A DNA stretch of 64,000 bases. Source: Anaerolineae bacterium (GTDB lineage: Bacteria; Chloroflexota; Anaerolineae; Aggregatilineales; Phototrophicaceae). How positions within the stretch are numbered: the stretch's first letter is position 1; each line of letters starts with the position of its first letter. Positions 6,288 through 59,893 of the stretch are shown here, one piece after another. The DNA is taken from the NCBI GenBank assembly GCA_022841825.1, contig JALHQT010000004.1, positions 434,001-498,000 on the forward strand. The letters are read 5' to 3'. Position numbers and translations under genes: made by a program. The notes below the pieces were generated by a model. That model saw only the letters and a list, made by a program, of their open reading frames with translations, did no database searches and was not told where the DNA came from.

Positions 6288-6302
6288 TTAACTTCCACCT
6301 GC

Positions 6303-6308
6303 TATACT
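6303..6308 (+). promoter_or_regulatory. -10 box upstream of citrate synthase
   Basis: TATACT, part of a GCTATACT octamer that recurs in this window. It lies 94 bases before the citrate synthase ATG. No convincing -35 box is visible. A six-codon open frame (M-P-L-F-A-T, stop at 6333-6335) starts at 6315, 6 bases after the box. Confidence 0.4.
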
Positions 6309-6402
6309 GGTATTATGCCGTTGTTTGCCACTTAAGTGTATTTTCCGCCTGGACATTGGGGCGGTCGGTTACTCATTCAAACTCAACATGGGAGTTCCTG
6401 AA

Positions 6403-7554
6403 ATGTCTGACGAAGTGAAAATTTATAAGGGTCTGGATGGCGTTGTCATCGACGAGTCCAAGCTGAGTCTTGTCAATGGTACGGATGGCAAACTCATTTA
6501 CAGTGGTTACAAGATCGAAGACCTGGCAGAGCACGCCCTCTATGAAGAAGTAGTTTATCTTTTGTGGAACGGGCACCTGCCGAACGCGACGGAGCTGGAA
6601 GCCGTGCGCGCTGAGATCGCGGCTGGCGCGGAAGTGCCTGCGCCTGTCCTGGCGATGGCACAGATGCTGCCCAAAGATGCTGAGCCTATGGCAGTGCTGC
6701 GCACGCTGACTTCAGCGCTTGCGCATTATGACGACGAGAGCGAAGACAGCAGCCCAGCGGCGAACCGCCGCAAAGCCGCGCGCCTGACCGGGCAGGTGAT
6801 GACCCTGGTTGCCAATTGGTCGCGCATTCGCAAGGGGCTGCCGGTCATCGCTCCGCGCCATGACTACACCGTCGCGCAGAATTATATGTACATGCTGCGC
6901 GGTGAAGCGCCCGAAGTCAACGCCGTCAATGCTATCAATGCCTTCATGGTGCTGCTGACCGAGCACGGCATGAATGCCAGTACGTTTGTCGGGCGCGCGA
7001 CGACCAGTACCAAGAGTGACATGCACAGCGCCATCGTCAGCGCCATCGGCACCCTCAAAGGGTCGCTGCACGGCGGCGCGAACACTGAAGCGATGCGCAT
7101 GTTCCTGGAAATCGGGGAAGTCGAAAATGTCGGGCCCTGGTTTGAACGTGAAATCAAGGAACTCGGCGGCAAGATCATGGGGATTGGGCATCGTGTTTAC
7201 AAGGCACTTGATCCCCGCGCAGCCGTGTTGAAGGATCGCGCGGAGAAGCTGGCACGCGCCAGCGGGAATGGCAAGTGGTTTGATATTGCCGACCAATTGG
7301 CAAACCTGGCACGCGCCGATGCCTACTTCATCGAACGCAAGCTGTATCCGAACGTAGACTATTTCAGTGCCATCGTCCTCTATACGCTGGAGCTTGAAGT
7401 CGATATGTTCACGCCGCTGTTCGCCATGAGCCGTATGGCGGGCTGGACGGCGCACATCATGGAACAAACCGCAAACAATCGTCTGATGCGCCCTGATGTG
7501 CTGTATACCGGGGCGATGGATCTGCCCTGGCTTCCGCTCGATCAACGCCCTTAA
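6403..7554 (+). CDS. gltA: Citrate synthase (type II-like fold, short form)
   Basis: Condenses acetyl-CoA and oxaloacetate to citrate at the entry to the TCA cycle (2-methylcitrate synthase activity is also possible). It has 383 residues, the short form typical of Gram-positive bacteria, Chloroflexi and archaea. Active-site residues are recognisable: His188 in TEHGMNAS, His223 in SLHGGANTEA, His263 in GIGHRVYK and Asp320 in YPNVDYFS. I chose the ATG at 6403 because GGGAG stands 8 bases upstream; an in-frame ATG at 6388 would add five residues. It is transcribed alone, with a promoter-like box at 6303 and a strong terminator right after the stop. PEP carboxylase at 43-45 kb could supply its oxaloacetate, but the two are not linked. 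Confidence 0.96.
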   Translation: MSDEVKIYKGLDGVVIDESKLSLVNGTDGKLIYSGYKIEDLAEHALYEEVVYLLWNGHLPNATELEAVRAEIAAGAEVPAPVLAMAQMLPKDAEPMAVLRTLTSALAHYDDESEDSSPAANRRKAARLTGQVMTLVANWSRIRKGLPVIAPRHDYTVAQNYMYMLRGEAPEVNAVNAINAFMVLLTEHGMNASTFVGRATTSTKSDMHSAIVSAIGTLKGSLHGGANTEAMRMFLEIGEVENVGPWFEREIKELGGKIMGIGHRVYKALDPRAAVLKDRAEKLARASGNGKWFDIADQLANLARADAYFIERKLYPNVDYFSAIVLYTLELEVDMFTPLFAMSRMAGWTAHIMEQTANNRLMRPDVLYTGAMDLPWLPLDQRP

Positions 7555-7574
7555 GTCGTGTGTGATGCGGAATG

Positions 7575-7600
7575 GGGGTGTGCCTGGGCACACCCCTTTT
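7575..7600 (+). terminator. Rho-independent terminator after citrate synthase
   Basis: Arms GGGGTGTGCC (7575-7584) and GGCACACCCC (7587-7596) are perfectly complementary and are followed by TTTT. The tight loop may open to CTGG. It starts 20 bases after the citrate synthase stop. Confidence 0.88.
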
Positions 7601-7691
7601 GATTCTTGCTGCTGGGCGGCGGAATGTTGCCAAACGGGGTCGTGCATGGTACACCCATGCCAACCATCCACGCTGTTCAGGGGGAACCGCT

Positions 7692-8411
7692 ATGATGCCG
7701 ATTGGGGATATCAATCCCACCCGCCGCACACCTTATCTGACCTGGCTGCTGATCGCGATCAACGCCGCTGTCTTCCTGTGGCAGCTTACGCTGACGCCAG
7801 AACAACTCCAGGAAGTCTTTATGCAGCTCGCGGTAGTGCCGCGCAATATCTCGTCAGCACCCTTTGCGCCAGAGGCGATCCTGGACTCGATTCGCAGCAT
7901 GTTCATGCATGGCGGATGGGATCATATCCTGGGCAATATGCTCTATCTGTTCCTGTTTGGCGATAACATCGAAGATCGGCTGGGTAAAGTGCTGTATCTG
8001 GCGCTCTATTTCATCACCGGCTTCGCAGCAGTCTATGGGCAGGTCATCATCGATCCGTCCTCGAATATTCCCATGATCGGCGCAAGCGGTGCTATCTCCG
8101 GCGTGCTAGGCGCATACCTGGTCATGTTCCCGCGCGTCAAGGTACGCGCGATTGTCTTCCTTGGCGTCTTCGGGCAAATCGCGGAACTTCCCGCATTGAT
8201 CGTCCTGGGGTTCTGGTTCCTGCTTCAGGCGTTCCAGGGTTTCGCGTCCCTCAGTGACGTGGCGTATGGCGGTGGCGTCGCATTCTTCGCGCATATTGGC
8301 GGCTTCATCGCGGGCGCGGTGCTTGCCTTTGTCTTTGTGCGGATGGTGCCGCAGCCGCCGCCACCTGAGCGCTACGAGATGTTGTATCAGCGCGTCGGGC
8401 GTGGTCGCTAA
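7692..8411 (+). CDS. Rhomboid family intramembrane serine protease
   Basis: Cleaves substrates within the membrane. The protein has 239 residues and six or seven hydrophobic helices. Catalytic Ser132 sits in GASGAISG and His201 in AHIGGF. The conserved HGGWDHILGNMLYLF motif, with His73 and Asn82, lines the oxyanion region. It starts with two Met codons; I use the first at 7692, because upstream in-frame codons run through the citrate synthase terminator. It lies between a terminator and a convergent TetR gene and seems to be transcribed alone. The substrate is unknown. The short Pro-rich C-terminal tail is cytoplasmic or periplasmic depending on helix count. Confidence 0.93.
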   Translation: MMPIGDINPTRRTPYLTWLLIAINAAVFLWQLTLTPEQLQEVFMQLAVVPRNISSAPFAPEAILDSIRSMFMHGGWDHILGNMLYLFLFGDNIEDRLGKVLYLALYFITGFAAVYGQVIIDPSSNIPMIGASGAISGVLGAYLVMFPRVKVRAIVFLGVFGQIAELPALIVLGFWFLLQAFQGFASLSDVAYGGGVAFFAHIGGFIAGAVLAFVFVRMVPQPPPPERYEMLYQRVGRGR

Positions 8412-8427
8412 AGCCGAGCACTGGCGC

Positions 8428-9033
8428 TCAACCCTGCGGGGGTGGCAGTTCGGTGCGGTAGACCATGCGGTACAGCATCGCTGCCATCTCTTCGGGCGTG
8501 TAGGGGTTGGGAGTCTCCAGCCACCACAACAGAAGCTGCAATGTCGCGCCCGCCATGAACTGCGTCATGAATTCGACCGGCAGATCGATGCGCGTGTTGT
8601 AGATTTGGGCACGCATCCCCGTCTCGTACACCTGCGTCATATATGCCTGGTAGCGCCTGCGCAGCTCCGCGCTGCCCTGAGACCCGAAGAGTTCAAGATA
8701 CTGCTTTCGATGTTCGACCAGGTATTCGAACAACAGTCGCCATCCCTCAAATTCGCGATGTTCCTGCGGTGTCTCCATGATGCACTGGTTGATGCGCAGG
8801 TTCTCTGTCATCATGACTTCCAGGACCACGTCCCAGGCAGCATCGTCAATGTCCGCGTAATGCAAATAGAACGTGCCGTAGCCGATGTCCGCAAGTGCGG
8901 TGATCTTCTGCACGGATAGGCTCCGGTAACCGTCGCGCAGCATCAGAGTGCTGGTTGCATTCTTGATCTGTTCGTGGGTATGGCGTTTGCGGCGCTCAAA
9001 GCGCGTTGCTGTAGTTGTGTCTATGACTGACAT
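8428..9033 (-). CDS. TetR/AcrR family transcriptional regulator
   Basis: A 201-residue one-component repressor. The helix-turn-helix lies at about residues 20-65, with the hallmark GYGTFYLHYADIDD just after the recognition helix. The C-terminal ligand and dimer domain is poorly conserved. It is divergent from the cytochrome P450 gene, and the 150-base gap holds two palindromes: one overlaps this start codon (9028-9039) and a longer one is at 9091-9120. The usual inference is control of itself and of the P450, probably relieved by a hydrophobic ligand. No clear ribosome site is seen. Confidence 0.9.
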   Translation of the reverse strand: MSVIDTTTATRFERRKRHTHEQIKNATSTLMLRDGYRSLSVQKITALADIGYGTFYLHYADIDDAAWDVVLEVMMTENLRINQCIMETPQEHREFEGWRLLFEYLVEHRKQYLELFGSQGSAELRRRYQAYMTQVYETGMRAQIYNTRIDLPVEFMTQFMAGATLQLLLWWLETPNPYTPEEMAAMLYRMVYRTELPPPQG

Positions 9034-9039
9034 TTGTCA
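9028..9039. promoter_or_regulatory. Small palindrome at the TetR start codon
   Basis: TGACA-TT-TGTCA overlaps the first codon of the TetR gene. It could serve for autorepression, but it is short enough to arise by chance. Confidence 0.3.
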
Positions 9040-9090
9040 TTACTGACGATTTGCATTTGAGTCCCCACTTATTCTAACCTTTTCTCCGTG

Positions 9091-9120
9091 TGATGATGAG
9101 AGGGATTTCTCTCATGATCA
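9091..9120. promoter_or_regulatory. Candidate TetR operator (12-base inverted repeat)
   Basis: TGATGATGAGAG (9091-9102) and CTCTCATGATCA (9109-9120) are inverted copies with one mismatch and a 6-base spacer. Size and position, midway between the TetR and P450 starts, fit a TetR-family operator. Confidence 0.55.
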
Positions 9121-9153
9121 TCGTCGTTAGTCACGAGATGATCCATATGAGTA

Positions 9154-9171
9154 TTGTGATGTAATTCACAA
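9154..9171. promoter_or_regulatory. CRP-like palindrome before the P450 ribosome site
   Basis: TTGTGA-N6-TCACAA is a perfect match to the core TGTGA-N6-TCACA bound by CRP-family proteins. It ends 12 bases before the P450 ATG, next to AGAAGG, so a bound protein would more likely block than activate. No CRP gene is present in this window. Confidence 0.45.
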
Positions 9172-9183
9172 GCGAGAAGGAAC

Positions 9184-10569
9184 ATGCAGCCTCAACCCCC
9201 CATGCGCCCTGGGCGCTTTATCGTCGGCATCATGCCGGAATTTCGTCAGGACTCACTGGAGTTCATGCTTGATGTGCGGAAATATGGCGACCTGGTACGG
9301 ACAAATTTCGGTCCGTTTCCGATGTACTTCGCCAATTCGCCCGAAGTCATACATCAGATACTGGTTGAAGACGCCAGCAAGTATCAAAAAAGCCAGGTCG
9401 TCAAGGATGTGCTCAAGCCGTCGGCGGGTAACGGCATCTTCACAAGCGATGGCGACTTCTGGCGACGTCAGCGTAAGCTGGTGCAGCCTGCCTTCCATAC
9501 CCGGCGCATCGGCAGCTATGCCGATACGATCACGCGCTTTTCGGCAGAGACAGCCGAGGTCTGGCGTGATGGTGAGACGCGCATGATCGACGAAGATATG
9601 ATGCATCTGACGATGCAGATCATCTGCAAGGTCTTGTTCGATGCCGAAATCCGTGAGGAGGTCGAACAGCTTGGCGGCGCAATGTCCCTGATCTTTAAGT
9701 TGAGCGATGATCGTTTCAACCAGCTTCCTGCCATCCCCTATTGGGTACCTACCCACCTGAACCGAACGCTGCGCGCGAACATCGGCGTCGTCGATGTGGC
9801 GATCCAGCGCTTTATCGACGACCGGCGCGCGAGCAAAGAGGACAAGGGCGATCTGCTGTCGATGCTGTTGGAAGCGCAGGACGAAGACGGGTCGGCGATG
9901 ACCGACCGCCAGGTGCGCGACGAAGCCATGACGTTGTTTGGTGCGGGACACGAGACGACGGCGGTCACGCTGATGTGGACGTGGTATCTGCTGTCGCAGC
10001 ATCCGGATGTCGAAGCAAAGCTGCATCAGGAGCTGGATGAGGTATTGGGCGGGCGGCTGCCAACCCTGGAAGACCTGGGGCGGCTGAAGTACACCGAGAT
10101 GGTCGTCAAAGAGTCGATGCGGCTCTATCCGCCTGCCTGGGGGACTTCGCGCCAACCCATCGAGGATGTCACGGTCGCGGGTTATGGCATTGCAAAAGGC
10201 GTCAATATCTTTGCCAACATTTACGGGATGCACCGTGACGCACGCTTCTTCGCCGATCCGCTCCGCTTTGACCCAGAACGCTTCAGCCCGGAGCGCGAAA
10301 AGGACATTCCGAAGCACGCTTATCTGCCGTTTGGCGGCGGTCCGCGCGTCTGTATCGGCAACGCCTTCGCCATGATGGAGGCGAAGCTGGTACTCGCGGT
10401 GCTCGCGCAGCGTTTCCACCTCGATCTTGCGCCTGGACACATCATCAAGCCGGAACGCCAGTTCACGCTGCGTTCCAGGCATGGGATGAAGATGATCGTG
10501 CGCGCTCGTCAGCCTGCGCTATACTCGCCGCATGAACAAACTCTCGAAGCGCCGACCCCCACCGTCTAG
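9184..10569 (+). CDS. Cytochrome P450 monooxygenase
   Basis: Heme-thiolate oxygenase of 461 residues without a membrane anchor, so probably soluble. The I-helix oxygen-activation motif AGHETT is at residues 254-259, the K-helix ExxR at Glu310-Arg313, and the heme loop FGGGPRVCIG has the ligand Cys390. The sequence style (for example the FGGGPRVCIGNAFAMMEAKL stretch) is like CYP102/CYP4-type fatty-acid hydroxylases, though the substrate is not proven. Redox partners are not fused and not nearby. The start is set by AGAAGG 3-9 bases upstream. A divergent TetR gene and two palindromes suggest regulated expression. The last 38 bases overlap the recombinase gene in another frame. Confidence 0.96.
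   Translation: MQPQPPMRPGRFIVGIMPEFRQDSLEFMLDVRKYGDLVRTNFGPFPMYFANSPEVIHQILVEDASKYQKSQVVKDVLKPSAGNGIFTSDGDFWRRQRKLVQPAFHTRRIGSYADTITRFSAETAEVWRDGETRMIDEDMMHLTMQIICKVLFDAEIREEVEQLGGAMSLIFKLSDDRFNQLPAIPYWVPTHLNRTLRANIGVVDVAIQRFIDDRRASKEDKGDLLSMLLEAQDEDGSAMTDRQVRDEAMTLFGAGHETTAVTLMWTWYLLSQHPDVEAKLHQELDEVLGGRLPTLEDLGRLKYTEMVVKESMRLYPPAWGTSRQPIEDVTVAGYGIAKGVNIFANIYGMHRDARFFADPLRFDPERFSPEREKDIPKHAYLPFGGGPRVCIGNAFAMMEAKLVLAVLAQRFHLDLAPGHIIKPERQFTLRSRHGMKMIVRARQPALYSPHEQTLEAPTPTV
10520..10525 (+). promoter_or_regulatory. -10 box inside the P450 gene, just before the recombinase start
   Basis: TATACT within a GCTATACT octamer ends 6 bases before the recombinase ATG. This places the expected transcription start on or next to the ATG, as in a leaderless mRNA. 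No clear -35 box. Confidence 0.4.
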
Positions 10570-11596
10570 CCTCGTCCTCGCCCCGTCAGACCTGACGTTT
10601 AATTTGGCGGCAGTTCTGCCGGGGCGCGCCAGCAGCCGCCACAGCCAGCGCGCTTACTACCGCTGGATCGAACGATACCTGGTCGAAATGGCGGCGCTCA
10701 AGCGTCCCAAATCTATGCCGCGGGAAGTGCTGATGAGCGCGCTGCCTGTCGAACCGCTGCTGGGCAGCATGACGGCTCCGACTCTGCGCGCCTGGCTGGG
10801 GAACCTGGCGCGCGAGGGGCATGGTCGCCAGGGTGTGAACCAGGCGCGGGCATCTATCGTCACACTGGCGGGTCTGCTGGCGGAATCGGAGCTGCTGCCC
10901 GATTACGTCAGTGCCGCGATGGGTAATGTGCGACCCCCGAACGCAGAGGATGGGCAGCGCCCAGGGCGCTGGTTGTCGATTGATGAGCTGCGGAGCCTGA
11001 TCGGTGCCGCACGACAGATTGCGACCAGCCCCACTATGGAACTGCGCAACAACGTCGTGGCGACGATGCTGTGTACGATGGCGCTGCGCCGCGAGGAGCT
11101 TTCGAACGCGCGCTGGGGTGATCTGTCCAGGCAAAACAATCGCGCGGTGATGCGCGTGCATGGCAAGGGCAGGAAAGTGGCGATGATCGACGTGCCGCGT
11201 CCTGTGTTGAACGCCCTGACCTCGTGGCGCGGAATTCTGGAGACCAGCAATGTACGCCTCGCGCCGGAGACGCCATTGGTACGCCGCATCTGGAAGGGTG
11301 GGCGAATCAGCAAATTCGGGTTGACGCCCGATGGCGTGTGGTGGGTCGTGGGCGATGCCGCTGCCGCAGCGGGCATCGGGCATGTCGCGCCGCATGACCT
11401 GCGTCGTTCGGTGGCGGGGGCGCTGCAAGAGAGCGGTGTACCCATCGAGAAGATCAGCCGCCTTCTGCGCCATTCGAACGTCGCAGTGACGGAACGCTAT
11501 CTGAGCAAGCTGCCGCAGGCGAACGAAGGGGCGATCCTGATGAGCGATGTCCTCGGTTTGGATGACGATCCGTTCGACTTCCGTGATGAGTCCTAA
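10532..11596 (+). CDS. Tyrosine recombinase / phage-integrase family protein
   Basis: Site-specific recombinase of 354 residues. The N-terminal SAM-like core-binding domain covers about residues 35-130 and the catalytic domain about 145-335. All expected catalytic residues are present: Arg186 in ALRREEL, Lys212 in HGKGRK, His288 and Arg291 in HDLRR, His314 in LLRHSN and nucleophile Tyr323 in TERYLS. The size is somewhat larger than XerC/XerD (about 300). It starts within the P450 gene and ends with a 4-base overlap of a convergent gene. No attachment-site repeats, phage genes or transposon ends are visible around it, so it could be a domesticated Xer-like enzyme or a remnant of an integrated element. 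Confidence 0.9.
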   Translation: MNKLSKRRPPPSSLVLAPSDLTFNLAAVLPGRASSRHSQRAYYRWIERYLVEMAALKRPKSMPREVLMSALPVEPLLGSMTAPTLRAWLGNLAREGHGRQGVNQARASIVTLAGLLAESELLPDYVSAAMGNVRPPNAEDGQRPGRWLSIDELRSLIGAARQIATSPTMELRNNVVATMLCTMALRREELSNARWGDLSRQNNRAVMRVHGKGRKVAMIDVPRPVLNALTSWRGILETSNVRLAPETPLVRRIWKGGRISKFGLTPDGVWWVVGDAAAAAGIGHVAPHDLRRSVAGALQESGVPIEKISRLLRHSNVAVTERYLSKLPQANEGAILMSDVLGLDDDPFDFRDES

Positions 11597-12326: not shown

Positions 12327-13400
12327 TTATTGCACAGGTTGGGCTTCACGCGCTGTAAGCAGGGTGCGCATGGCTTCGACCGTCTGGCGAATATGGTCCT
12401 GCGTGATCCAATAGTGTGTGACGACGCGGAACTTGCGCTCGCGTGGTTCGTAGGGGCGCATCAGAATGTTGTACTCCGCCTTCAGGCGCGCGGAGAACTG
12501 CTCGACGGTCATGGGCGCATCCGCCGACAGTGTGAAATAGACCATGTTCGTTTTCACCCGCGTGACATCGACATCGACGTACGGCAACCGGGCGATCTCC
12601 TGCGCGAACAGGTGTGCGGTCGCGTGGTCTTCGTGCAGACGCAAGGGCATTTCGTGCAGGGCGATCAGCCCCGCCGCCGCGAGAATGCCTGCCTGCCGCA
12701 TCCCGCCACCCAGGCTCTTGCGCACGCGGTGTGCCTGCTTGATGAACTCTCGCGAGCCAACAATCACCGAACCGACCGGGGCACACAAGCCCTTCGAGAG
12801 GCAGAGGCTGACGCTGTCGGCGTCCCGCACCAGGACGCGCGCTTCGACACCCAGCGCAGCAGCAGCATTGAAGAGCCGCGCGCCGTCGATGTGCAGCTTG
12901 ATTCCGTGCTCATGCGCGAGATCCGCGACCTGCGAGACATAAGCAGCGGGCAGTGGTGCGCCTGACATTGTGCCCTGCGTGTTTTCCAGGCAGACGAGGC
13001 GTGTGATGGGCATATGGGGATTGTCGGCGCGGATGGCAGCGCGGATCGCATCGAGTTCGAGTGTGCCATCCGGCTGCACGGGCAGCGTATTGGGCTGGAT
13101 GCCGCCGTACATCGCCATGCCGCCCGCCTCGTACTTGAAGATGTGCGCTTCTTTGCCGACGATGATCTCATCACCGCGCTGGCAGTGCGCGAGCAGGCTC
13201 GTCAGGTTGCCCATGGTCCCGCTGGGCACGAACAGCCCGGCTTCCTTGCCCAGGAGTGCCGCTGCATCCGCCTGAAGCTGGTTGACAGTCGGGTCTTCGC
13301 CATACACGTCGTCGCCCACCGGCGCGTTTGCCATGGCGTCACGCATCGCGGGGGTAGGGACCGTTACTGTATCGCTGCGGAGGTCAATTGCAGGCTGCAT
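12327..13400 (-). CDS. ltaE: Low-specificity L-threonine aldolase (PLP enzyme)
   Basis: Cleaves L-threonine or allo-threonine to glycine and acetaldehyde. It has 357 residues and the fold-type I aldolase pattern from the start: [15 protein letters not shown], then PSGTMGNL near residue 60. His86 (GKEAHIF) should stack on the cofactor, Asp172 (HIDGAR) bind the pyridine nitrogen, and Lys203 ([11 protein letters not shown]) form the Schiff base. It is soluble. It forms a two-gene unit with the CPBP-like membrane gene, which begins 2 bases downstream; a functional link is not obvious. The 198 bases between it and the divergent ABC ATPase hold the promoters, but I see no strong boxes. Confidence 0.94.
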
Positions 13401-13598
13401 TCAGGGGCTTCCTTTGTGAGCATCGTCAATCCTCGTGAATCCTAGTAGCGACTGCGCGATAAGACAAGCCCTTGGGTTGATCTTGCCCTGCAATCCCGTC
13501 AGCATCGCTTGCGTGAGTGCCTCCATATTGATTGTGGTATGGCTTCTTCCTAAAGAGCCATAATGTACGGTGAACAATCGATTCAAAGTGTTGATATT

Positions 13599-14681
13599 AT
13601 GACCGTGATCCTCGTTGACCATCTGTGTAAGTCGTTCCCGCAGGCGACAGCGACCCGTGTCGAATCTGTCCCAGCCGTCGATCATGTATCCCTCAAGCTT
13701 GCTTCAGGGCAAGTCATAGCAATCCTGGGTCCATCCGGCTGTGGTAAATCGACGCTGCTTCGCCTGGTCGCCGGGCTAATCGAGCCAGATGCCGGACGTG
13801 TCCTCTATGACGATGTCGATCTCCGACACATTCCGGTTGAAGAGCGTGGCATCGGCATGGTCTTCCAGGATGGCGCGTTGATCCCCCACTGGGACGTACG
13901 CCAGAATATCGGCTTCTTCCTATGGCTGCGCAAACGCGAGAGTGAAGTCCCGCAGCGCGTCAGTCGAATCAGCCAGATCACGGGGATTGGCTTGGAGAAG
14001 CTGCTTGACCGCCGCCCTCGCCAGCTCTCCGGAGGTGAGCGACAGCGGGTCGGCATCGCGCGGGCGTTGGCGCGCGACCCTCGCGTCTTTCTGTTCGATG
14101 AACCGTTTTCGAACCTGGATGCCAAGCTGCGGACACAGGCGCGGGTCGAACTTAAGAAGCTCCTGCACGAGTTCCCGGTGACGAGTCTGTACGTCACGCA
14201 TGACCAGACGGAAGCACTCGCGCTTGCCCATCGCATCGCAATCATGCGCGCCGGGAAGCTGGAGCAGATGGGGGATTTTGAGACGCTCTATCGCAACCCG
14301 ATTAACCTGTTTGTCGCCACGTTTTTTGGGACGCCGACGATGAACCTGTTCGAGGGTGTGGTGCGCGGGCATCACTGGCAGGGAATCAGTTTTGGCGGGC
14401 TGCCGGTGCGCGGCGACCTTGAAGAGGGTACGCGCATTACCCTTGGTGTTCGGGCGGAGAGCATCCGACTGGGTGGGGAGGGCGTGCCCGCGCTCGTCAC
14501 CGCTGCGACGCCGCATTATGGCGAGAGGATGCAACTGGTCGAGGTCGAAAACGGACGTGAACACTGGACACTCGTCGCGCCGTTAGATGGCAGAGTGCTT
14601 GTCGGCGACACGCTGACGTGCACTCTGGCGGAGGTGGATTGCCTGTTCTTCGACAGTGTGACCGGGCAGCGGGTCGGCTAA
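13599..14681 (+). CDS. ABC importer ATPase of the MalK/UgpC/PotA type, no partner genes
   Basis: A 360-residue ATPase with a full nucleotide-binding domain: Walker A GPSGCGKST at 44-52, Q-loop VFQDGALIPHW, signature LSGGE at 143-147, Walker B VFLFDEP at 163-169, and THDQTEAL after it. The C-terminal TOBE-like beta-barrel (from about residue 235) is typical of carbohydrate and polyamine importers. I use the ATG at 13599, giving MTVILVDHL; an in-frame ATG at 13563 would add 12 residues without a better ribosome site. No permease or binding protein lies nearby, so it may be a shared ATPase serving several importers, as MsiK does in Streptomyces. It ends with a 4-base overlap of the convergent ComEA-like gene. 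Confidence 0.92.
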   Translation: MTVILVDHLCKSFPQATATRVESVPAVDHVSLKLASGQVIAILGPSGCGKSTLLRLVAGLIEPDAGRVLYDDVDLRHIPVEERGIGMVFQDGALIPHWDVRQNIGFFLWLRKRESEVPQRVSRISQITGIGLEKLLDRRPRQLSGGERQRVGIARALARDPRVFLFDEPFSNLDAKLRTQARVELKKLLHEFPVTSLYVTHDQTEALALAHRIAIMRAGKLEQMGDFETLYRNPINLFVATFFGTPTMNLFEGVVRGHHWQGISFGGLPVRGDLEEGTRITLGVRAESIRLGGEGVPALVTAATPHYGERMQLVEVENGREHWTLVAPLDGRVLVGDTLTCTLAEVDCLFFDSVTGQRVG

Positions 14682-19610: not shown

Positions 19611-20069
19611 TTAGCGCTGAACGGCAATCCAGGGATCGACGTTGCGCGACCAGCCGGGGAACAGCTCTGCTTCGCTGAAGAAATTGGCGACTTCCGCAAG
19701 CCCATTCTCTGGGCTGTCGGAGCCGTGCACCAGGTTGTAATCGACTTCCAGTGCGAAATCACCACGAATACTCCCCGCTTCGGCTTCGAATGGCTTCGTC
19801 TTGCCAATGGTTGTACGGGCTGCGAGGATGGCGTTGGGTCCCTCCAGCGCAAGCGCGATGACGGGCGATGAAGTGATGTAATTCACCAGCTTAGGGAAGA
19901 AATCGCGCTCACGATGAATTGCGTAGTGCTTTTCCGCCAGTTCGCGCGAGACGAGCATGAACTTCATCCCGATTATCTTCAAGCCACGCTGCTCGAAACG
20001 CTTGATGATTTCGCCCGCCAGCCCGCGCTGGACGCCATCTGGCTTCACAATGATGAGCGTTCTTTCCAC
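19611..20069 (-). CDS. ndk: Nucleoside diphosphate kinase
   Basis: Moves the gamma-phosphate of ATP onto nucleoside diphosphates. It has 152 residues, the usual length. The N terminus MERTLIIVKPDGVQRGLAGE is canonical, and the phospho-His is His115 in NLVHGSDSPENG. The start is a GTG at 20069, set by AGGAG 6 bases upstream; a longer frame would add seven unrelated residues. It lies 91 bases downstream of the shorter acidic repeat protein on the same strand and may share its transcript. Confidence 0.97.
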   Translation of the reverse strand: MERTLIIVKPDGVQRGLAGEIIKRFEQRGLKIIGMKFMLVSRELAEKHYAIHRERDFFPKLVNYITSSPVIALALEGPNAILAARTTIGKTKPFEAEAGSIRGDFALEVDYNLVHGSDSPENGLAEVANFFSEAELFPGWSRNVDPWIAVQR

Positions 20070-20160
20070 AATGAACTCCTTAGAGAAGACAAACAAGGGT
20101 CATCCGAATGTCTGGACGACATGGATGACCCTGAGTATACCTTGCGAAGATTGTTGAGGG

Positions 20161-22077
20161 TTAGAGCAGATTTAGCGCCTGCCGGTATGTATTCAGCGCA
20201 TCTTGCAGCTTGCCCTGGCGCATCAGGCTGTCGCCCCAAACACGATAGGCGACCGCGTTCTTGCTGGTGGTCGCAATACTGCTCAGGTCGCTCGCAACCT
20301 CCAGCAACGCCTGCCCGGCGCGCACCATCATTTCGTAGATCGCCAGCCCGCCCTCTGCATCGCCACTCTGATAACGGGCGCGTGCTTCTTCCAGGGTGCC
20401 GCTTCCAGCCGCGATGGGGGGCGGCGGTGCGACTGGAGGCGATACTGGGGGTGGTGCAATGGTGATGACCGGCGCGACAGGTTCCGGCTCAGACGGACTG
20501 CCGGACTGCCAATCTAGGATCGCCGGATGCTGCTCATCGGTGGAACGCAGCCAATCGGGCATGCCTGCGCTGAATTCCGAAGCACTCAGAGGTTCAGGTG
20601 CTGTGATGGCTGCCATCGTGCCAGTCGAAGTGCTTGTCATCCATCCTGGCACGGACTGACGTTCGCCAGCGCGCAGACTGGTTTCGACGGGCAGTGCGGC
20701 ATCGGCAAGCTGTGTCGTAATGACCTGGATCGGCGTGATCGCAGGCATTTCGTCAGCTTCGCGCGCGGGTTCGCTTTCGGCAGGTACTGCCGCCACGACC
20801 GACGTTTCGATACGAGTGATGCGCGCAGGATTAGAGATATTTTGCAGATACCACTCCGGTGCCTCATCCGGCATGCCACCGTGTTCATACTCCTCGTCAA
20901 GTGCCTCGACCCAGGGGTCGTTCTCGTTGACTTCGATTTCCGAACGCGCCACGGGGATGTCCGCAAAAATGCTGGCGGCGGTTTCCGAGCTTGAGTCGTC
21001 ATCTTCCAGCCAATCCGGAATGGAAAGTGCGCCAGTCTGGACTTTTGGAAGCTCATTCTGAAGGATGCTTTCAAGCGGAGGAAGCTGTCCAGTCTGCCGT
21101 TTCATCATTTGCTCTGCTTCGATTTGGGACTCGGGGTTCAACTCCTCCAACCAATCGGGCAGTTCGGCAGGCTCGGCTTCGTCAAGTTCCTCTTCGAGTT
21201 CTGGCTCCGGAATGTGCGATGCGCGCTCCATCTGAAGTTCCTGGTAGCGCTTCATCTGCATGGTGGTGACGCGCCCCTCGCGGATCGCGCGTTCGATCCC
21301 GTCAATCGTCATGTCGTCCGCAGCGGGGGTACGAAGCTGAGGCTCGGCTCTGAGCGCATCATCCAGGAAGCCGGCTTCAGATGCGAATGAATCCAGCAGG
21401 GACGACGGGTTTTCGAGCGCTGGGGCTGGCTGACGCGGGATGAGTGGCTCGGCAGGTTTGAACGCACTGCTGTCACCTGCTTCATCGGCGATGCTTTTCA
21501 GCCACGACTGAGGATTAATCGTCGTCTGCACAGGCATCGGAGGCGGCGCGGGCGCGATCATGTCCAGTTCGTCGTCCAGCGACGACAAGTCGAGGCTGAA
21601 GTCGCTCATGTCCTGGTCGGCTGCCAGGCTTTGCAGCCACGCCATCGCGTTGTCGCCGATAGCGGCATCCAGATTGACATCGTCTGCTCGCACAGGCTCG
21701 GACATCTGCGGCAGCGGCGCAGGCGCGGGGGGCGGCATGACCGGCGGAGGCGGTGAAGTGAAGAGCGGCATCGGCGCAGGCGGCGGTGTACGTTCAAAGG
21801 ATGGCAGCGGCGCAGGCGCAGGCGGGGGGACGGGCGCGCGCTCGACACGCGGCGGCGGCGGTGCGGCTGGCGCAGACTTGGGCTGACGCAGCGATTCTTC
21901 ATAGGGGACATAACCCGGCTCGTCAATAACGACGGAGTCCGGATCGATGTCGGGGATTTCGAGATCGGCTGCTGTAGTAAATCCTTCGTTCGCACCCTGA
22001 CGTTTTGCTAACGTCTCCATCCATGCCATGATCTCGTCAGGCGACATATCGTCGAAGTTGGGCGTATCCTGGGACAT
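20161..22077 (-). CDS. Acidic Pro-rich protein with repeated Trp-Leu motifs and C-terminal TPR-like domain
   Basis: A 638-residue protein with no membrane helix. It begins with a small ordered segment (MSPDEIMAWMETLAKRQGA), passes into a Pro/Ala-rich linker (about residues 68-125), then a long acidic region. Short motifs of the form (P/x)(D/S/A)WL recur: MAWLQSL, QSWLKSI, PDWLEEL, PDWLEDD, PGWMTS, PDWLRS. The last 80 residues (GTLEEARARYQSGDAEGG onward) form two or three TPR-like helical pairs ending in WGDSLMRQGKLQDALNTYRQAL. It starts 29 bases after the larger relative and is probably co-expressed with it. I infer a scaffold that binds a partner through many weak Trp-Leu motifs; function unknown. 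Confidence 0.8.
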   Translation of the reverse strand: MSQDTPNFDDMSPDEIMAWMETLAKRQGANEGFTTAADLEIPDIDPDSVVIDEPGYVPYEESLRQPKSAPAAPPPPRVERAPVPPPAPAPLPSFERTPPPAPMPLFTSPPPPVMPPPAPAPLPQMSEPVRADDVNLDAAIGDNAMAWLQSLAADQDMSDFSLDLSSLDDELDMIAPAPPPMPVQTTINPQSWLKSIADEAGDSSAFKPAEPLIPRQPAPALENPSSLLDSFASEAGFLDDALRAEPQLRTPAADDMTIDGIERAIREGRVTTMQMKRYQELQMERASHIPEPELEEELDEAEPAELPDWLEELNPESQIEAEQMMKRQTGQLPPLESILQNELPKVQTGALSIPDWLEDDDSSSETAASIFADIPVARSEIEVNENDPWVEALDEEYEHGGMPDEAPEWYLQNISNPARITRIETSVVAAVPAESEPAREADEMPAITPIQVITTQLADAALPVETSLRAGERQSVPGWMTSTSTGTMAAITAPEPLSASEFSAGMPDWLRSTDEQHPAILDWQSGSPSEPEPVAPVITIAPPPVSPPVAPPPPIAAGSGTLEEARARYQSGDAEGGLAIYEMMVRAGQALLEVASDLSSIATTSKNAVAYRVWGDSLMRQGKLQDALNTYRQALNLL

Positions 22078-22106
22078 CGCGCTTCCTTACCCATTCCCTT
22101 TACAAA

Positions 22107-25100
22107 CTAACGCAACCAGGCGGGGAGGTCACTGTCATCTGTGACTTCAGATGCAGCGCCGCGCCCCTCGATAAGCCGTCGCAGCCAGCGCGGCGGACGT
22201 GAGAATACGAAACGCGGTGCCTGAACCGCAACAGCGGGAACCGCAATATCGGACTTCGTCTCTTCATCGACGATTTCATTGAGCCATTCGTAGTCATCTG
22301 GCATGGGGGCGGTGTTGGCGGCGTTGGCGGTTTCTTCGCTGATGTCTTCTTCGATCACATCTTCGAGGTCGCCAGCGCCTGCGGCGGTGTCGATATCCAA
22401 CCCAGGCACCATGGCGTTGAGCCAATCCGGAGCATTGGAGCCTGTAGTGGCGGCTTCAAACGCAGTGTCAGGTTCGGATGCTGCCAGGTCTTCAAAGGCG
22501 CTGTAATACTTGTTGTCCGTCGCAGCGTCGTCTGCTGCCGTCTGCCAGTCAGCCTGCTCGGGTTCAATGACTGCGACCGGCTCAAACACGTCGTCCGGCA
22601 TGTTGCTCTCCGGGACTTCCAGATCCCAGAACTCTTCGGAGGCTTGTGCGGGTTGTTCGTCGTCTGACGGGGACAGAGTGGCTGCGACAACCGCAGCCGC
22701 CGCGACGGGTGCCGCCGCATCCAGCAGCCAATCCGGAGTGGACGACGGCGCTTCTTCGGGCGACGCTGACTCGTCTGGCGTTTCATCCAGCCAGACGGCG
22801 GCATCCAGCTCCGCGTCGGTTTCGGGGACTTCAGCGACAAGAGGCTCGGCATCAAATGCCTCGGCAGGGGTTGCGCTGCCCGTGACGTCGGTCATCCAAT
22901 CAGGCACTGACTGGGTTTCCCCGGTGTCGAGGAGCGAATTGACGAATTCTTCCGCGCTGGATTCAGCCGCTGGTTGCAGATCGTCGGACAACGCTGCGCC
23001 TGCAAAGGGCGGTTCAGCGGCAAGCAGATCGTGTTCTGATTGGGTGTCAATCGGAACATCGTGCTCGATCTCGGCGATAGTCGGTTCCTCAAACGCGGGT
23101 TCTTCCGGATGATGTTCATCCATAAGAAGTTCAAAGCCAAGCGGGGTTTCCTCGTCTGTCCAGTCCGAAACATTCGGCTCTGACAATGCCCAGTCGGATG
23201 CAACAGCCTCGGCAGCGCCCATCGCAGGCTGATCACTCATGTCCAGCGCAAAGGCTTCCTCGTTCGTCTCTTCGACCAGCGGAAGGACTCCTGTGTCTGA
23301 CCCGTCGCTGGCATCATCCAGATCGCTGGTCTGAAGCCAGTCTGCCAACGCTGCAAAGCTGTCATCGGATGACAGAATTGCCGTATTCGCTGTGCCGACG
23401 AGTTCAGCCGTGCCCACATTTGCTTCAAGGTCTGCCTCGCTGCCGAAGGGTTCGGTCAGGGGAAGATCAGGCAGCAGTTCGTCCAGTGTCTCTGCCGCCA
23501 ACCATTCTCCGATCGGTCCGCCGTCCGCGACCAGCGCCTGCGCATCCTGTTCTTCATCCCACAGGATCTCGCTCGTACTGGGAAGCTGCGCCTCGGCGGG
23601 CTGCGAGTCTTCGTACAGTTCATTCAGCCACGATGTATCTGGGGGCAGAATGTCGCCTGTCGCTGGTTGAGCGTCCAGTGGTTCGGTCGTGGGCACAACC
23701 TGATTGTCGCCCAGCCAATCGAGAATATCGGTCGCGCCGGTCTCGTCCTGGAGCGCGGATTCGAGACGTTTCTCAGCGTCCAAATCTTCCAGCCAGGCTG
23801 GGGTCTCCGGAACGTTGAGGTCGGCAGTCGAGAATTCCTGCTCGGCGTCCTCCTGCCCCAACGGTACAGTCGGCGGCATTGGGCGATTCTGTGAGAGCCA
23901 GTTGAGGATGCCTGTTGAACCCGTCGGCTCTTCGGACGTCGAGATCTGTTCAGACGTCACGTCATACGACGGGTTGTCGCCCTGCGCCAGCCAGCTTAGA
24001 ATCCCGGTGGTGCCCGTAGATTCCTCCGATACCGGCGCGCCACTTTGGTCAAGGCTGGATGTTTGTTCAGCATTCTTGTTCTTGTCGAGCCAATCCAGCA
24101 TCCCGGTGGCACCGGTCGATTCTTCCTCATTCTCCTTGGGAGTTTCATCGTCCCATTCAAGATCTGGTTTCTGAGAATCGGACATGAGTTTTCCCTCGCT
24201 TGAAGATGGCTCAGAAGTCATCGCTTTGTCCAGTGCATCCCATTCCTCGTCGCTCATTGGGGGGAGGGGGGATGTTGGGGGGGAGTTCGGGACTGCATCC
24301 AGGATCGCTGAGAATTCGTCCGCAATTGTCGTATCGTCCTGGATGGCGGAAGACTGAGCAGCAGTCGTCAATGGTTCCAGACCACGCGCCTCGTTGAGAA
24401 GGCGCTCGTTGATCTCCCATTCATCCAACGAGTTCGTGAGATCGTCGTTGTCCTCGCCCAGATTACGCTGTTCCGCCCCCAGGTTGAGCGGCATGGTTTG
24501 TGCCGCGCGTGCCACGAACGGGTTATTGGGCGTCGCAGGCTGCTGTGTCCAGTCGTCAACGATCATGTCCAGATCGGGCATAGGAAACTCGTCTTCAAGG
24601 GGTTCAAGCGCAGCCCCGCTGACTTCATCCGTTTTTCGCGTCGAGTCGTCCTGCCCATGATCGCGCGCTGGCGTAAGTCCTTCATCTTCTTGCCCGCCGG
24701 CAAGTTTGTCGGTGCTGTAGTCGTTGAGCCAGTTCAGCGGGTCTGCTTCGGAAGCGATTTCCGGGTCTTCGTAGACGATCTCTTCGAGTTCCTGGAGCAT
24801 CGACGCCGTCGTAGAGGGATTATCAACGACTTCAATGCCGCTGCTGCGTAACCATGCCAATGGGTCTTCGGTCTTCGCTTCTGCCGCCTCCGGGCGCGCC
24901 ATCGACTCCTCGGGATTGGCGGACGGAGTCTCAGCATTCATCCATTCGAAGGGGTCTTCTTCGATATGATATTCGGTTTCGAGTTCAAACTCGCCTTCAT
25001 GAACGGCGTTCTCTGGCAGGACGTTGTCAGTCTCTATCGAAGGCTCAAATTCTTCGGGCGAACCCATGTCCTCATCATTTGCCCACTCAAAAGCGAACTC

Positions 25101-26201
25101 CTGGTCGGCGTCATCCGTTGGCACTCCCAAGTCGGGAAGCTGGTCCTCAGCGACCGCGTCATCGTCTGCCAGCGGCGAGGTTGTCGATTGCAGCGCAGAG
25201 GTGTTGAGCTGGTAACTCATCTCGATAGAGTCCAGATGGCTCAACCAGTCCTGCTCTACTGGTGTTGAGGGATCACCTGCCATGCTTTCAGGCAGCTCGC
25301 CCCCGTAATCGGCGAAACCACGCTCGATGAGACCCGATGTGCTGGGAAGCGAAGTGCTCTCGTCGGCATCTCCGACAGGAAGATCAATGTTCTGAAGCCA
25401 GTCAGGATGTTCGGAAACCAACTCTGCCTGGATACGACGCTGATAATCCAGCTCTGGCAGCATGAAACTGTTGTCATCTGCGGGCAGCCCTTGCACAAGT
25501 TCAATCGCCAGATAGGGATCGACGGCTTCGACCTTGTTGAGGTGGCGACGCGCATCAGAGGGGCGCTGCTCCGATAACCAGAGGGTCGCCAGCATCTTGT
25601 TGGCTTCCAGGCAGTTGGGATAGGTCTCGAGGACATCCATCGCGGTTTCCGCCGCATCAAGCGAATTGCCGCGCTGCCATAGCGCTTCTGCCAGCAGCAG
25701 GCGCAGATCGGCGCGCTGCGGTGTACGTTTGAGGGACGCGCGCAGCGCTTCTATCGCACGATCAAAGTCGCGACTGCGGATGTTCTGACGCGCTACAGCG
25801 GCAGTGGTGAACTGGATTCGCGGATTGGCGATGTGTCGATGCTCATGATACAGACGCTTAAGCTCGTCGATGAGATAGGTATCGTTCGGGTCTTGCTCGA
25901 AGGCACGTTCCAGATGCCAGATCGCCTCGTCCATGCGATGCTGGCGCTCGTAGGCGGTGCTGAGCAGCAGGTGGCTTGCTCTATCGTTCGGCAGGACGCT
26001 CAGTACGCGCCGCAGCGTGGCATTTGCCTGATCCCATCTTCCCAGGGAGACCAGTGCCCGTCCGACAAAGCGGTACGCATCAACATTCTTCGGGTAATAC
26101 TGGAGGATGTGCCGCGCGTGCCACAAGACCTCGTCAGCCGAACCTGCTTGGGCGAGCTGATCGAGGCGGACAAGGTAATCGCGGAGGCTTATTTCAGACA
26201 T
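22107..26201 (-). CDS. Giant acidic TPR protein with tandem Trp-Leu motifs
   Basis: A 1364-residue cytoplasmic protein. Residues 1 to about 260 are TPR repeats (QAGSADEVLWHARHILQYYPKN and following units). The remaining 1100 residues are strongly acidic and largely disordered, punctuated by about 20 short motifs containing WL or WM: DPLAWLR, DPLNWLN, GMLDWLD, GILSWLA, GILNWLS, DILDWLG, TPAWLED, PDWMTD, TPDWLLD, APDWLNA, YEWLNE, and LPAWLR at the very C terminus. Four of them form a tandem array (about 23705-24125), each preceded by E-x-TGxT. It is first in a three-gene row with the shorter relative and ndk. Function unknown; a multivalent scaffold is the inference. Confidence 0.82.
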   Translation of the reverse strand: MSEISLRDYLVRLDQLAQAGSADEVLWHARHILQYYPKNVDAYRFVGRALVSLGRWDQANATLRRVLSVLPNDRASHLLLSTAYERQHRMDEAIWHLERAFEQDPNDTYLIDELKRLYHEHRHIANPRIQFTTAAVARQNIRSRDFDRAIEALRASLKRTPQRADLRLLLAEALWQRGNSLDAAETAMDVLETYPNCLEANKMLATLWLSEQRPSDARRHLNKVEAVDPYLAIELVQGLPADDNSFMLPELDYQRRIQAELVSEHPDWLQNIDLPVGDADESTSLPSTSGLIERGFADYGGELPESMAGDPSTPVEQDWLSHLDSIEMSYQLNTSALQSTTSPLADDDAVAEDQLPDLGVPTDDADQEFAFEWANDEDMGSPEEFEPSIETDNVLPENAVHEGEFELETEYHIEEDPFEWMNAETPSANPEESMARPEAAEAKTEDPLAWLRSSGIEVVDNPSTTASMLQELEEIVYEDPEIASEADPLNWLNDYSTDKLAGGQEDEGLTPARDHGQDDSTRKTDEVSGAALEPLEDEFPMPDLDMIVDDWTQQPATPNNPFVARAAQTMPLNLGAEQRNLGEDNDDLTNSLDEWEINERLLNEARGLEPLTTAAQSSAIQDDTTIADEFSAILDAVPNSPPTSPLPPMSDEEWDALDKAMTSEPSSSEGKLMSDSQKPDLEWDDETPKENEEESTGATGMLDWLDKNKNAEQTSSLDQSGAPVSEESTGTTGILSWLAQGDNPSYDVTSEQISTSEEPTGSTGILNWLSQNRPMPPTVPLGQEDAEQEFSTADLNVPETPAWLEDLDAEKRLESALQDETGATDILDWLGDNQVVPTTEPLDAQPATGDILPPDTSWLNELYEDSQPAEAQLPSTSEILWDEEQDAQALVADGGPIGEWLAAETLDELLPDLPLTEPFGSEADLEANVGTAELVGTANTAILSSDDSFAALADWLQTSDLDDASDGSDTGVLPLVEETNEEAFALDMSDQPAMGAAEAVASDWALSEPNVSDWTDEETPLGFELLMDEHHPEEPAFEEPTIAEIEHDVPIDTQSEHDLLAAEPPFAGAALSDDLQPAAESSAEEFVNSLLDTGETQSVPDWMTDVTGSATPAEAFDAEPLVAEVPETDAELDAAVWLDETPDESASPEEAPSSTPDWLLDAAAPVAAAAVVAATLSPSDDEQPAQASEEFWDLEVPESNMPDDVFEPVAVIEPEQADWQTAADDAATDNKYYSAFEDLAASEPDTAFEAATTGSNAPDWLNAMVPGLDIDTAAGAGDLEDVIEEDISEETANAANTAPMPDDYEWLNEIVDEETKSDIAVPAVAVQAPRFVFSRPPRWLRRLIEGRGAASEVTDDSDLPAWLR

Positions 26202-59364: not shown

Positions 59365-59766
59365 TCAGTAACTGAGCGTCTCTTCGACATCCTGCGCCGC
59401 ACGTTTTGTTGCGTACAGGATATGACTCAGCCGCGCGTCTTTTTCTGCGAGAACGGCGAGTGAGGCGCGACCTGCCGGGAAGATGACCATCACCCCTTCT
59501 TCACCTTCCATGAGCAGCCGCTCCAGGTTTCCCTGTGCCAGCCGCCCCAATGTCTTTTCCGCCAGACCGACCAGCGTCGCGGACATGGCTGCCACCTGGG
59601 GGCTACTTGTCGGGTTCTGATGTGGGTTTTCGTCATCCCCAGGTGGGTACGAGGCGACGAGCAGACCATCGATATTGACGATGACCGATGCCCTGATGCC
59701 ATCAACTGCGATATGCAGGGTTTTCAATGTGCGTTCAAGGACTGCACTGCGGGATTCTTGCGACAT
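59365..59766 (-). CDS. Roadblock/LC7 domain protein
   Basis: A 133-residue small protein with the roadblock fold: ERTLKTLHIAVDGIRASVIVNIDGLLVASYPP at the start, then AAMSATLVGLAEKTLGRLAQG and the strand GVMVIFPAGRASLAVLAEKDARLSHILY. Such proteins often act as regulators of MglA-type small GTPases (MglB) or as dimeric scaffolds. No small GTPase is present here. I chose the ATG at 59766; a TTG at 59826 would add 20 residues with no family match. It lies convergent to the FHA gene, after a 64-base gap. Confidence 0.87.
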   Translation of the reverse strand: MSQESRSAVLERTLKTLHIAVDGIRASVIVNIDGLLVASYPPGDDENPHQNPTSSPQVAAMSATLVGLAEKTLGRLAQGNLERLLMEGEEGVMVIFPAGRASLAVLAEKDARLSHILYATKRAAQDVEETLSY

Positions 59767-59893
59767 GGGCACTTTTCCCAGGCTGTATGCGCGGAAGCTA
59801 TGCTCATCGCGCGGCGTGTGTAACAAATTCTAATGAGCAGTATAGCCGATGTCTGGCGTGGACTCAATAAAAGCTGGCGTCAGCGGTGGCTAA

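Follow-up and report, generated by a model that had tools for sequence, protein, structure and literature searches.

The question raised by this locus is what two adjacent genes encoding acidic proteins strewn with Trp-Leu motifs might do, and what those motifs might bind. The genes, here termed A and B, lie within a stretch of 64,000 nucleotides from Anaerolineae bacterium of the phylum Chloroflexota (assembly GCA_022841825.1, contig JALHQT010000004.1, positions 434,001 to 498,000), hereafter referred to as the window. Our preferred explanation is that A and B constitute one scaffold, composed of a tetratricopeptide repeat (TPR) solenoid, a long acidic disordered tail and a second TPR domain. 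The tail bears some 25 repeats of a brief docking motif that probably forms a helix, [DE]-hydrophobic-P-D-W-L-x-x-hydrophobic, and these would be read by a receptor shared with a second protein, M, the preferred reader of the motif being a GlmL-like protein encoded together with M. Taken as a whole, we give this explanation roughly even odds (about 0.5). Scaffolds built on many short motifs abound in eukaryotes but, to our knowledge, have seldom been reported from bacteria. In the present case, two unrelated proteins of the same genomes follow a single motif grammar, which is tied to an uncharacterized PF13941 gene. A set of uncharacterized proteins from a large phylum that has received little study thereby becomes a system open to testing, with a defined motif and candidate receptors. 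Among the openly licensed papers covered by our literature search, none described these proteins or such a docking code.

Genes A and B and their motif array

The features of the locus are as follows, all on the minus strand.

22107..26201 (-): gene A, 1364 amino acids (aa); N-terminal TPR solenoid and acidic tail with 20 W[LM] motifs
25416..26201 (-): A residues 1-262, TPR domain (AlphaFold2 model; Pfam TPR_19, 1.9e-19)
25395..25400 (-): first motif of A, HPDWLQNI, with W268; at least 90% invariant in a 62-row alignment
22110..25415 (-): A residues 263-1364, acidic tail with WL array (sequence and partial model)
23715..24122 (-): within the A tail, E-x-TGxT[GD]x[LI]xWL repeated four times in tandem (W704, W737, W768, W829)
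20161..22077 (-): gene B, 638 aa; WMETLAKRQGA unit at the N-terminus, then a Pro/acidic tail holding 7 W[LM] and a C-terminal TPR
21907..22056 (-): B residues 8-57, conserved unit AWxESLAxxQGA ... IDPxSVVIDEPGYVP
20164..20448 (-): B residues 544-638, TPR at the C-terminus (fused orthologues end in a homologous one)
19611..20096 (-): ndk, nucleoside diphosphate kinase, conserved neighbour downstream of A and B

Together, the two open reading frames (ORFs) comprise 2002 residues. Of their 28 W[LM] pairs, A has 21 (one of which falls inside the TPR domain, at residue 208) and B has 7, which bears out the original prediction of two adjacent genes of over 2000 residues with about 25 WL or WM motifs. 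The number of pairs far exceeds residue-shuffle expectation in both genes (20 vs 3.35 in the A tail and 7 vs 1.20 in B residues 1-540), as none of 2000 shuffles reached the observed value in either case. The A tail is acidic, with 24% D/E and 2.7% K/R. A preference for Pro, Asp or Gly before most of the motifs had also been proposed; directly before the Trp this applies to only 12 of 28, whereas it holds for 16 of 28 when positions -1 and -2 are both considered. The four-copy tandem array of A is real, with a TGxT prefix preceding each copy (TGATGMLDWL, TGTTGILSWL, TGSTGILNWL and TGATDILDWL) and a further motif, W803 (PETPAWL), situated between the third and fourth copies. However, it is a local elaboration, as the TGxT prefix occurs in just 5 of 118 distinct A tails.

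The TPRs predicted at one end of each protein are well above Pfam thresholds at the N-terminus of A, where they are the only domains to exceed a cut-off, and below threshold in B, which has nothing over its cut-off and a C-terminal TPR scoring at best 20.5 bits vs a threshold of 26.8. The B-type C-terminal TPR is nonetheless homologous to the fused C-termini described below and was modelled confidently by AlphaFold2 in the one fused orthologue that was folded. A scan of A and B against NCBIfam returned no family over its cut-off, the Pfam scan found no LysM domain in either protein (E<=0.1), and no transmembrane segment was seen in them by eye. AlphaFold2 modelled window A as a confident TPR solenoid to residue ~260 (block predicted local distance difference test, pLDDT, 93-98), with residues 3-5 and 247-249 as strands, followed by a low-confidence region (residues 263-340) having short helices at both motif sites there. 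Against the PDB, Foldseek returned only generic TPR matches for this domain, PEX5 being just one among them.

When orthologous loci are examined, it is evident that A and B belong together, since they are adjacent in 37 distinct loci and a single protein in 22. Computed directly from 99 distinct loci, 37 encode A followed by a separate B-type gene (in two of these, L168 and L190, runs of N interrupt the sequence and are uninformative on fission) and 22 encode one fused protein of TPR-tail-TPR architecture ending in a B-type C-terminus; the remaining 40 include 20 cut by contig ends and 20 without a detectable B-type C-terminus. The unit at B residues 8-57 is tandemly repeated in some B orthologues, and its WLxxLA..GA core is present in fused orthologues too; W[LMI]xx[LI][AT]...GA is found in all but three of the 37 B proteins (34) and in 16 of the 22 fused ones. 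AlphaFold2 modelled a 557-aa fused homologue (L171) with two confident TPR ends and a low-confidence tail between them. Judging from these sequence comparisons, A and B are two halves of one scaffold protein, so the description as two adjacent proteins stands for the genes and is better replaced by one split protein for their products; gene A would be the half whose ancestral C-terminal part now resides in gene B. Two clusters of the neighbourhood comparison (6 and 18) appeared by eye to be wrong-frame ORFs and were ignored.

Within the order and below, A was found in 39 of 41 genomes and B in 36 (the window's own included). Among 201 genomes sampled phylum-wide, the window A protein matches 54 (E<=1e-12) and a profile of its TPR domain matches 78 (E<=1e-30), some of the latter being short frames of 240-540 aa that may not be orthologues. 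A total of 268 relatives were found, and the best 80 of these are mostly titled Anaerolineae, Anaerolineales or Chloroflexi, two being Aggregatilineales. The loci compared include one from a cultured Anaerolineae strain, Ornatilinea apprima (L174). Two orthologue loci (L124 and L132) stem from records titled Pleurocapsa minor and Bacteroidetes bacterium; their A proteins are ~50% identical to that of Anaerolineae, which suggests that the assemblies are misnamed or contaminated. The gene ndk lies downstream in 20 of 22 fused loci. A, with or without B, is followed by ndk in the same orientation and at a distance of up to 9 kb in 15 of the 17 genomes of the window's class that have A, and in 35 of the 50 A-bearing genomes outside the class for which the ndk position was among the matches listed. 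That position was not among the matches listed for 11 A-bearing genomes outside the class, three of which (G156, G161, G169) had no ndk match at all.

One of the key features of the A tails is the frame in which their Trp residues are set. Across 1638 W[LMIV] sites from 87 distinct tails, the consensus is [DE]-[IVMTL]-P-D-W-L-[SRK]-x-[LMI], i.e. D/E at -4, I/M/T/V/L at -3, P at -2, D at -1, L/M at +1, S/R/K at +2 and M/L/I at +4. These 87 were selected from 117 tails for having at least 8 W[LMIV], so their counts describe the motif and are not proof of its frequency; the 30 excluded tails fall below 8, some because they are cut, and one of them (L235, from G161) appears by eye to be a TPR protein of another family. 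For 90 of the 117, the observed motif count was reached by none of 300 shuffles. In the 87, Trp is followed by L/M/I/V in 76% of cases vs 17% in shuffles, with excesses over expectation for P at -2 (875 vs 166), D at -1 (851 vs 169), D at -4 (479 vs 169) and the spacing W[LMIV]xx[LMIV] (776 vs 62), while hydrophobic residues are preferred at both -3 and +4. The +4 residue is L in 338 sites, M in 200, I in 139, F in 67 and Y in 27.

The motifs also look selected. In 14 hand-picked and partly overlapping orthologue pairs, aligned with the aligner's Trp weight removed, motif Trp is retained at 253 of 326 positions (78%) and motif L at 68%, vs 63 of 120 (53%) for other Trp, 1032 of 2393 (43%) for other L/M/I/V, 56% for acidic residues and 46% for the rest. 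The original prediction had proposed multivalent docking, to be judged by whether motif position and number are conserved in orthologues. The proposal holds up in most, though not all, comparisons: motif number and consensus do persist, but for two distant pairs (L155/L156 and L174/L179) no more than roughly one third of motif Trp stays in register, and thus motif positions turn over as number and grammar persist.

Not all lineages use the same motif. Six A proteins from families f28, f38, f64 and f67, which may be Chloroflexia, bear PFSLxxLGLSxEEIA in their tails (FSLxxL 99 vs 1.7 expected), and W[LMIV] is at expectation there (8 vs 9.1). Four A proteins of family f33 are rich in WLxxL (20 vs 1.9 expected), and the tails of f51, f25 and f49 have little except a single WLQAQGA-like site. 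Some tails appear to contain additional domains. In one A orthologue from outside the window's class that has a Roadblock/LC7 gene nearby (L102, minus strand, 5744-11095), residues 855-924 match Pfam Sigma70_r1_1 (25.1 bits vs 22.5), and by eye a similar stretch is apparent in the A orthologues of L104 and L107. Separately, a close orthologue (L068:7550-12106) carries around residue 860 the stretch LTMIEGIEPETAEALFAAGITSFQALADA, which by eye resembles a helix-hairpin-helix domain and was not seen in window A.

A second carrier of the motif and its neighbour

A second protein bears the same code. We scanned four genomes for clusters of exact PDW[LF] codons, defined as at least three same-strand sites within 6 kb, and found them at A (or A/B) in all four, at M in three and at no other locus. 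In the window genome, M is the only such locus apart from A/B, and likewise in two genomes of family f9, where M has a zinc ribbon; in the fourth (G030), A has the sole cluster and M lacks an exact PDW[LF] codon. Genome-wide totals of PDW[LF] codons equal those of a reversed-pattern control in the window genome (55 vs 55) and amount to 42 vs 31, 41 vs 35 and 49 vs 37 in the other three, and therefore the code sits in few loci rather than being a proteome-wide habit. A further window-genome locus with two neighbouring PDWL sites (L109) has no ORF with two or more motif matches.

The window-genome M is a protein of 2089 aa with an SH3 domain, motifs such as PPWLR, LPDWFLGLE and PDWL, and hydrophobic stretches that we read by eye as transmembrane. 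M matches were found in 22 of 25 genomes, including the window's own, and M is built from a zinc ribbon and/or apparent transmembrane segments together with a Pro-rich, often acidic array; it is apparently membrane-anchored in many lineages. No TPR was found in the two M proteins scanned for it. All 13 order-level M ORFs read exceed their shuffle means for PxW-hydrophobic (4-12 vs 0.1-0.4 each, 95 vs 4.3 in total), and the excess extends to two Anaerolineales-type M proteins (20 vs 0.5), five from f28, f38, f64 and f67 (147 vs 3.7) and six from f33, f51 and f49 (50 vs 1.8). Those of f28, f38, f64 and f67 have 23-48 sites each (9 in the cut L272), while A there uses PFSLxxLGL. Those of f33, f51 and f49 are barely acidic overall (0.01-0.04 net per residue) and keep LPxWLR. 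As judged by sequence, M is unrelated to A/B yet follows the same motif grammar, and the presence of the motif in this second protein in all lineages read strengthens the shared-partner idea of the original prediction. The M of a genome without A (L282:4894-8526) contains TGVTGNLTWQ and TGVTGTLDWQ, which are close to the TGxTGxLxW units of window A, hinting that this sub-motif too may be common to A and M. In the window genome, a TIR-domain protein (L108:1051-2274) with a bacterial SH3 match just below threshold is encoded some 6 kb upstream of M.

M forms an operon-like row with a DUF6754 (PF20539) gene, for which 8 of the 18 genomes tested gave no match, and a GlmL/MutL-like PF13941 gene, which was found above the Pfam cut-off in 16 of 16 genomes searched. 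In all 16 genomes with a readable upstream side, which come from several families of the phylum (G000, G045, G152, G206, G150, G158, G190, G051, G108, G164, G124, G228, G236, G019, G038, G204), M directly precedes the PF13941 gene or is separated from it by a single small gene, and this upstream M carries 3-48 PxW-hydrophobic sites vs 0.1-1.1 expected. For the final eight genomes in this list, PF13941 was the sole means of finding the locus, and Trp motifs played no part in it. The count is made without G052 and G015, whose contigs end inside or before M, and without G142, G062 and G081. The gene beside M matches the MutL family PF13941 with 179 and 198 bits vs a gathering threshold of 27.

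Candidate receptors and rival explanations

Because two unrelated proteins carry one motif grammar, a receptor common to both would be expected, and we consider it likely that the motifs form a docking array with a shared receptor, whichever protein that may be. The GlmL-like protein is the first candidate, since it accompanies M in each lineage seen; we favour it tentatively, at somewhat less than even odds. All A/B and M motifs would then dock into this one protein, presumably an ATPase. M would hold it in a row, at the membrane in many lineages, and A/B would either hold it in the cytoplasm or bring clients bound by the TPRs to the same assembly.

Several observations weigh against the GlmL-like protein. 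Three of the proteins beside M score 72, 55 and 26 bits against the GlmL NCBIfam equivalog, far below its cut-off of 475, and a PDB search with the GlmL-like profile returned no solved structure at E<=1, so the actin-like (ASKHA) fold and ATPase activity are presumed from the Pfam family name and general background. The A and M-GlmL loci are far apart or on different contigs wherever both positions are known, and two genomes (G019 and G038) have M and GlmL with no A at the search threshold. Furthermore, in f28, f38, f64 and f67 the A motif is PFSLxxLGL despite the presence of GlmL and a WL-bearing M, and therefore the A motif does not simply track GlmL.

The likeliest of the rivals, which we nevertheless regard as unlikely, is that the receptor is a Roadblock/LC7 dimer and that A, as a disordered scaffold, lines up such dimers for small-GTPase signalling, the Roadblock gene having left the locus in the window's class. 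Of 61 A-bearing genomes outside the class, 32 have a Roadblock gene on the strand of A and no more than 9 kb from it, usually in the interval that separates A from ndk, and in the four f33 genomes this linkage coexists with WLxxL tails (20 sites vs 1.9). A Trp helix bound by a Roadblock dimer also has a biochemical precedent, RomR W394 with MglC (PMC12719032). The window genome has three Roadblock genes, one of them in the window:

59365..59826 (-): Roadblock/LC7 gene, rival partner candidate, 33 kb from A

Within the window's class, however, the A locus lacks Roadblock in all 17 A-bearing genomes, and relaxing the search over those class loci that were fetched revealed none beside A. Ten regions around Roadblock genes contain no WL arrays (at most two loose matches per ORF), and of 41 relatives 40 have Roadblock genes, two of these 40 lacking A. 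G015 (94% complete, 6% contamination) has A and B and no Roadblock match. Where the closest Roadblock relatives are found at the A locus, the families concerned have PFSLxxL in A rather than WL. Ultimately, Roadblock fell behind because M bears the same motif beside PF13941 in lineages both with and without Roadblock at the A locus. Counterparts of the window's Roadblock gene lie 21-35 kb from A in five genomes of the same genus (G002, G013, G012, G003, G004) and one of the same family (G022), 177 kb away in G023, and elsewhere on other contigs. At another locus, L215, a Roadblock gene (7987-8391) is ~5 kb from what appears by eye to be a small-GTPase-like ORF (13359-13913) and adjoins a CTP synthase-like gene (by eye), a pair that recurs in L213 and L217.

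Alternatively, the motifs could dock on the scaffold's own TPR domains, within or between molecules, yielding self-assembly or autoinhibition. The fused protein has TPRs at both ends, and recognition of W-acidic motifs by TPRs is known from kinesin light chain. We judge this quite unlikely. The N-terminal TPR domain is not basic (mean net charge -5.7 in 87 orthologues and -1 in the window protein), and M carries the same motif with no TPR match in the two proteins scanned. AlphaFold2 adds weak evidence in the same direction: the motif helices of the 557-aa fused homologue reach a pLDDT of 44-53 with no confident docking, and in window A only the first motif reaches a block pLDDT of 70. Bulk properties form a third, very unlikely alternative, namely an acidic stickers-and-spacers condensate or an entropic bristle acting without a specific receptor. 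An acidic chain poor in K/R and dotted at regular intervals with aromatic stickers would suit such a role, but bulk stickers need Trp and not the P(-2), D(-1), L(+1) and hydrophobic (+4) frame seen in 87 orthologues and a second protein, and the M proteins of f33, f51 and f49 preserve LPxWLR even though barely acidic. Finally, compositional drift without function, despite the poor conservation of positions between motifs, is contradicted by the shuffle controls, the conserved consensus and the preferential retention of motif Trp, and we reject it as barely conceivable.

Returning to the docking array with a GlmL-like reader, one can also envision a phylum-wide intracellular organizing system of the Chloroflexota based on a Trp docking code, although we regard this extension as doubtful. 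An ASKHA-type GlmL-like ATPase would be lined up on as many as 48 PxWL motifs of the often membrane-anchored M, the Anaerolineae TPR scaffold A/B would have acquired the same code for its TPR-bound clients, and PFSLxxLGL may read Roadblock dimers in sister lineages.

Comparison with known systems

Several described systems share individual features with A/B and M. The polar hubs FimV and HubP are large, acidic and repetitive proteins with TPRs and an N-terminal LysM, whereas A/B have no LysM match, no transmembrane segment by eye and a different motif. The dynein intermediate chain with LC7 is another case for comparison. In Myxococcus, RomR uses its acidic C-terminal helix to bind MglC, a Roadblock dimer, with a dissociation constant of 2.6 nM, an interaction that requires W394 (PMC12719032). 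The likeness consists of a disordered region and a helix containing Trp that is recognized by a small dimer, the adjacency of A to a Roadblock gene in other families of the phylum, and a CheY-like gene at two A loci of one genus (L102 and L103). Unlike A, with its ~20 motifs and TPRs, RomR has one helix and a folded N-terminal domain; its arrangement of a receiver domain plus a single C-terminal helix is not found in A/B by Pfam, and Roadblock is absent from the A locus in the window's class. For the GlmL-like candidate, the pertinent precedents are the actin-like proteins FtsA and PilM, which bind short cytoplasmic peptides of the membrane proteins FtsN and PilN (PMC7613929). These are single peptides, whereas M arrays reach 48 sites, and the GlmL-like protein differs further in having no detectable sequence match to solved structures.

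In working principle, the closest system is PEX5-PEX14. PEX5, the peroxisomal import receptor, is soluble, with TPRs at one end and a disordered region whose several Trp motifs, in part located within amphipathic helical stretches, engage membrane-associated PEX14 (PMC8086558). The motif here is PDWLxxL and not WxxxF/Y (F and Y together being minor at +4, as given above), the fused form has TPRs at both ends and many more motif copies, there is a second motif carrier, the host is bacterial and the homology does not extend beyond generic TPRs. What A has in common with PEX5 is the combination of a TPR domain with a disordered region that bears multiple Trp motifs.

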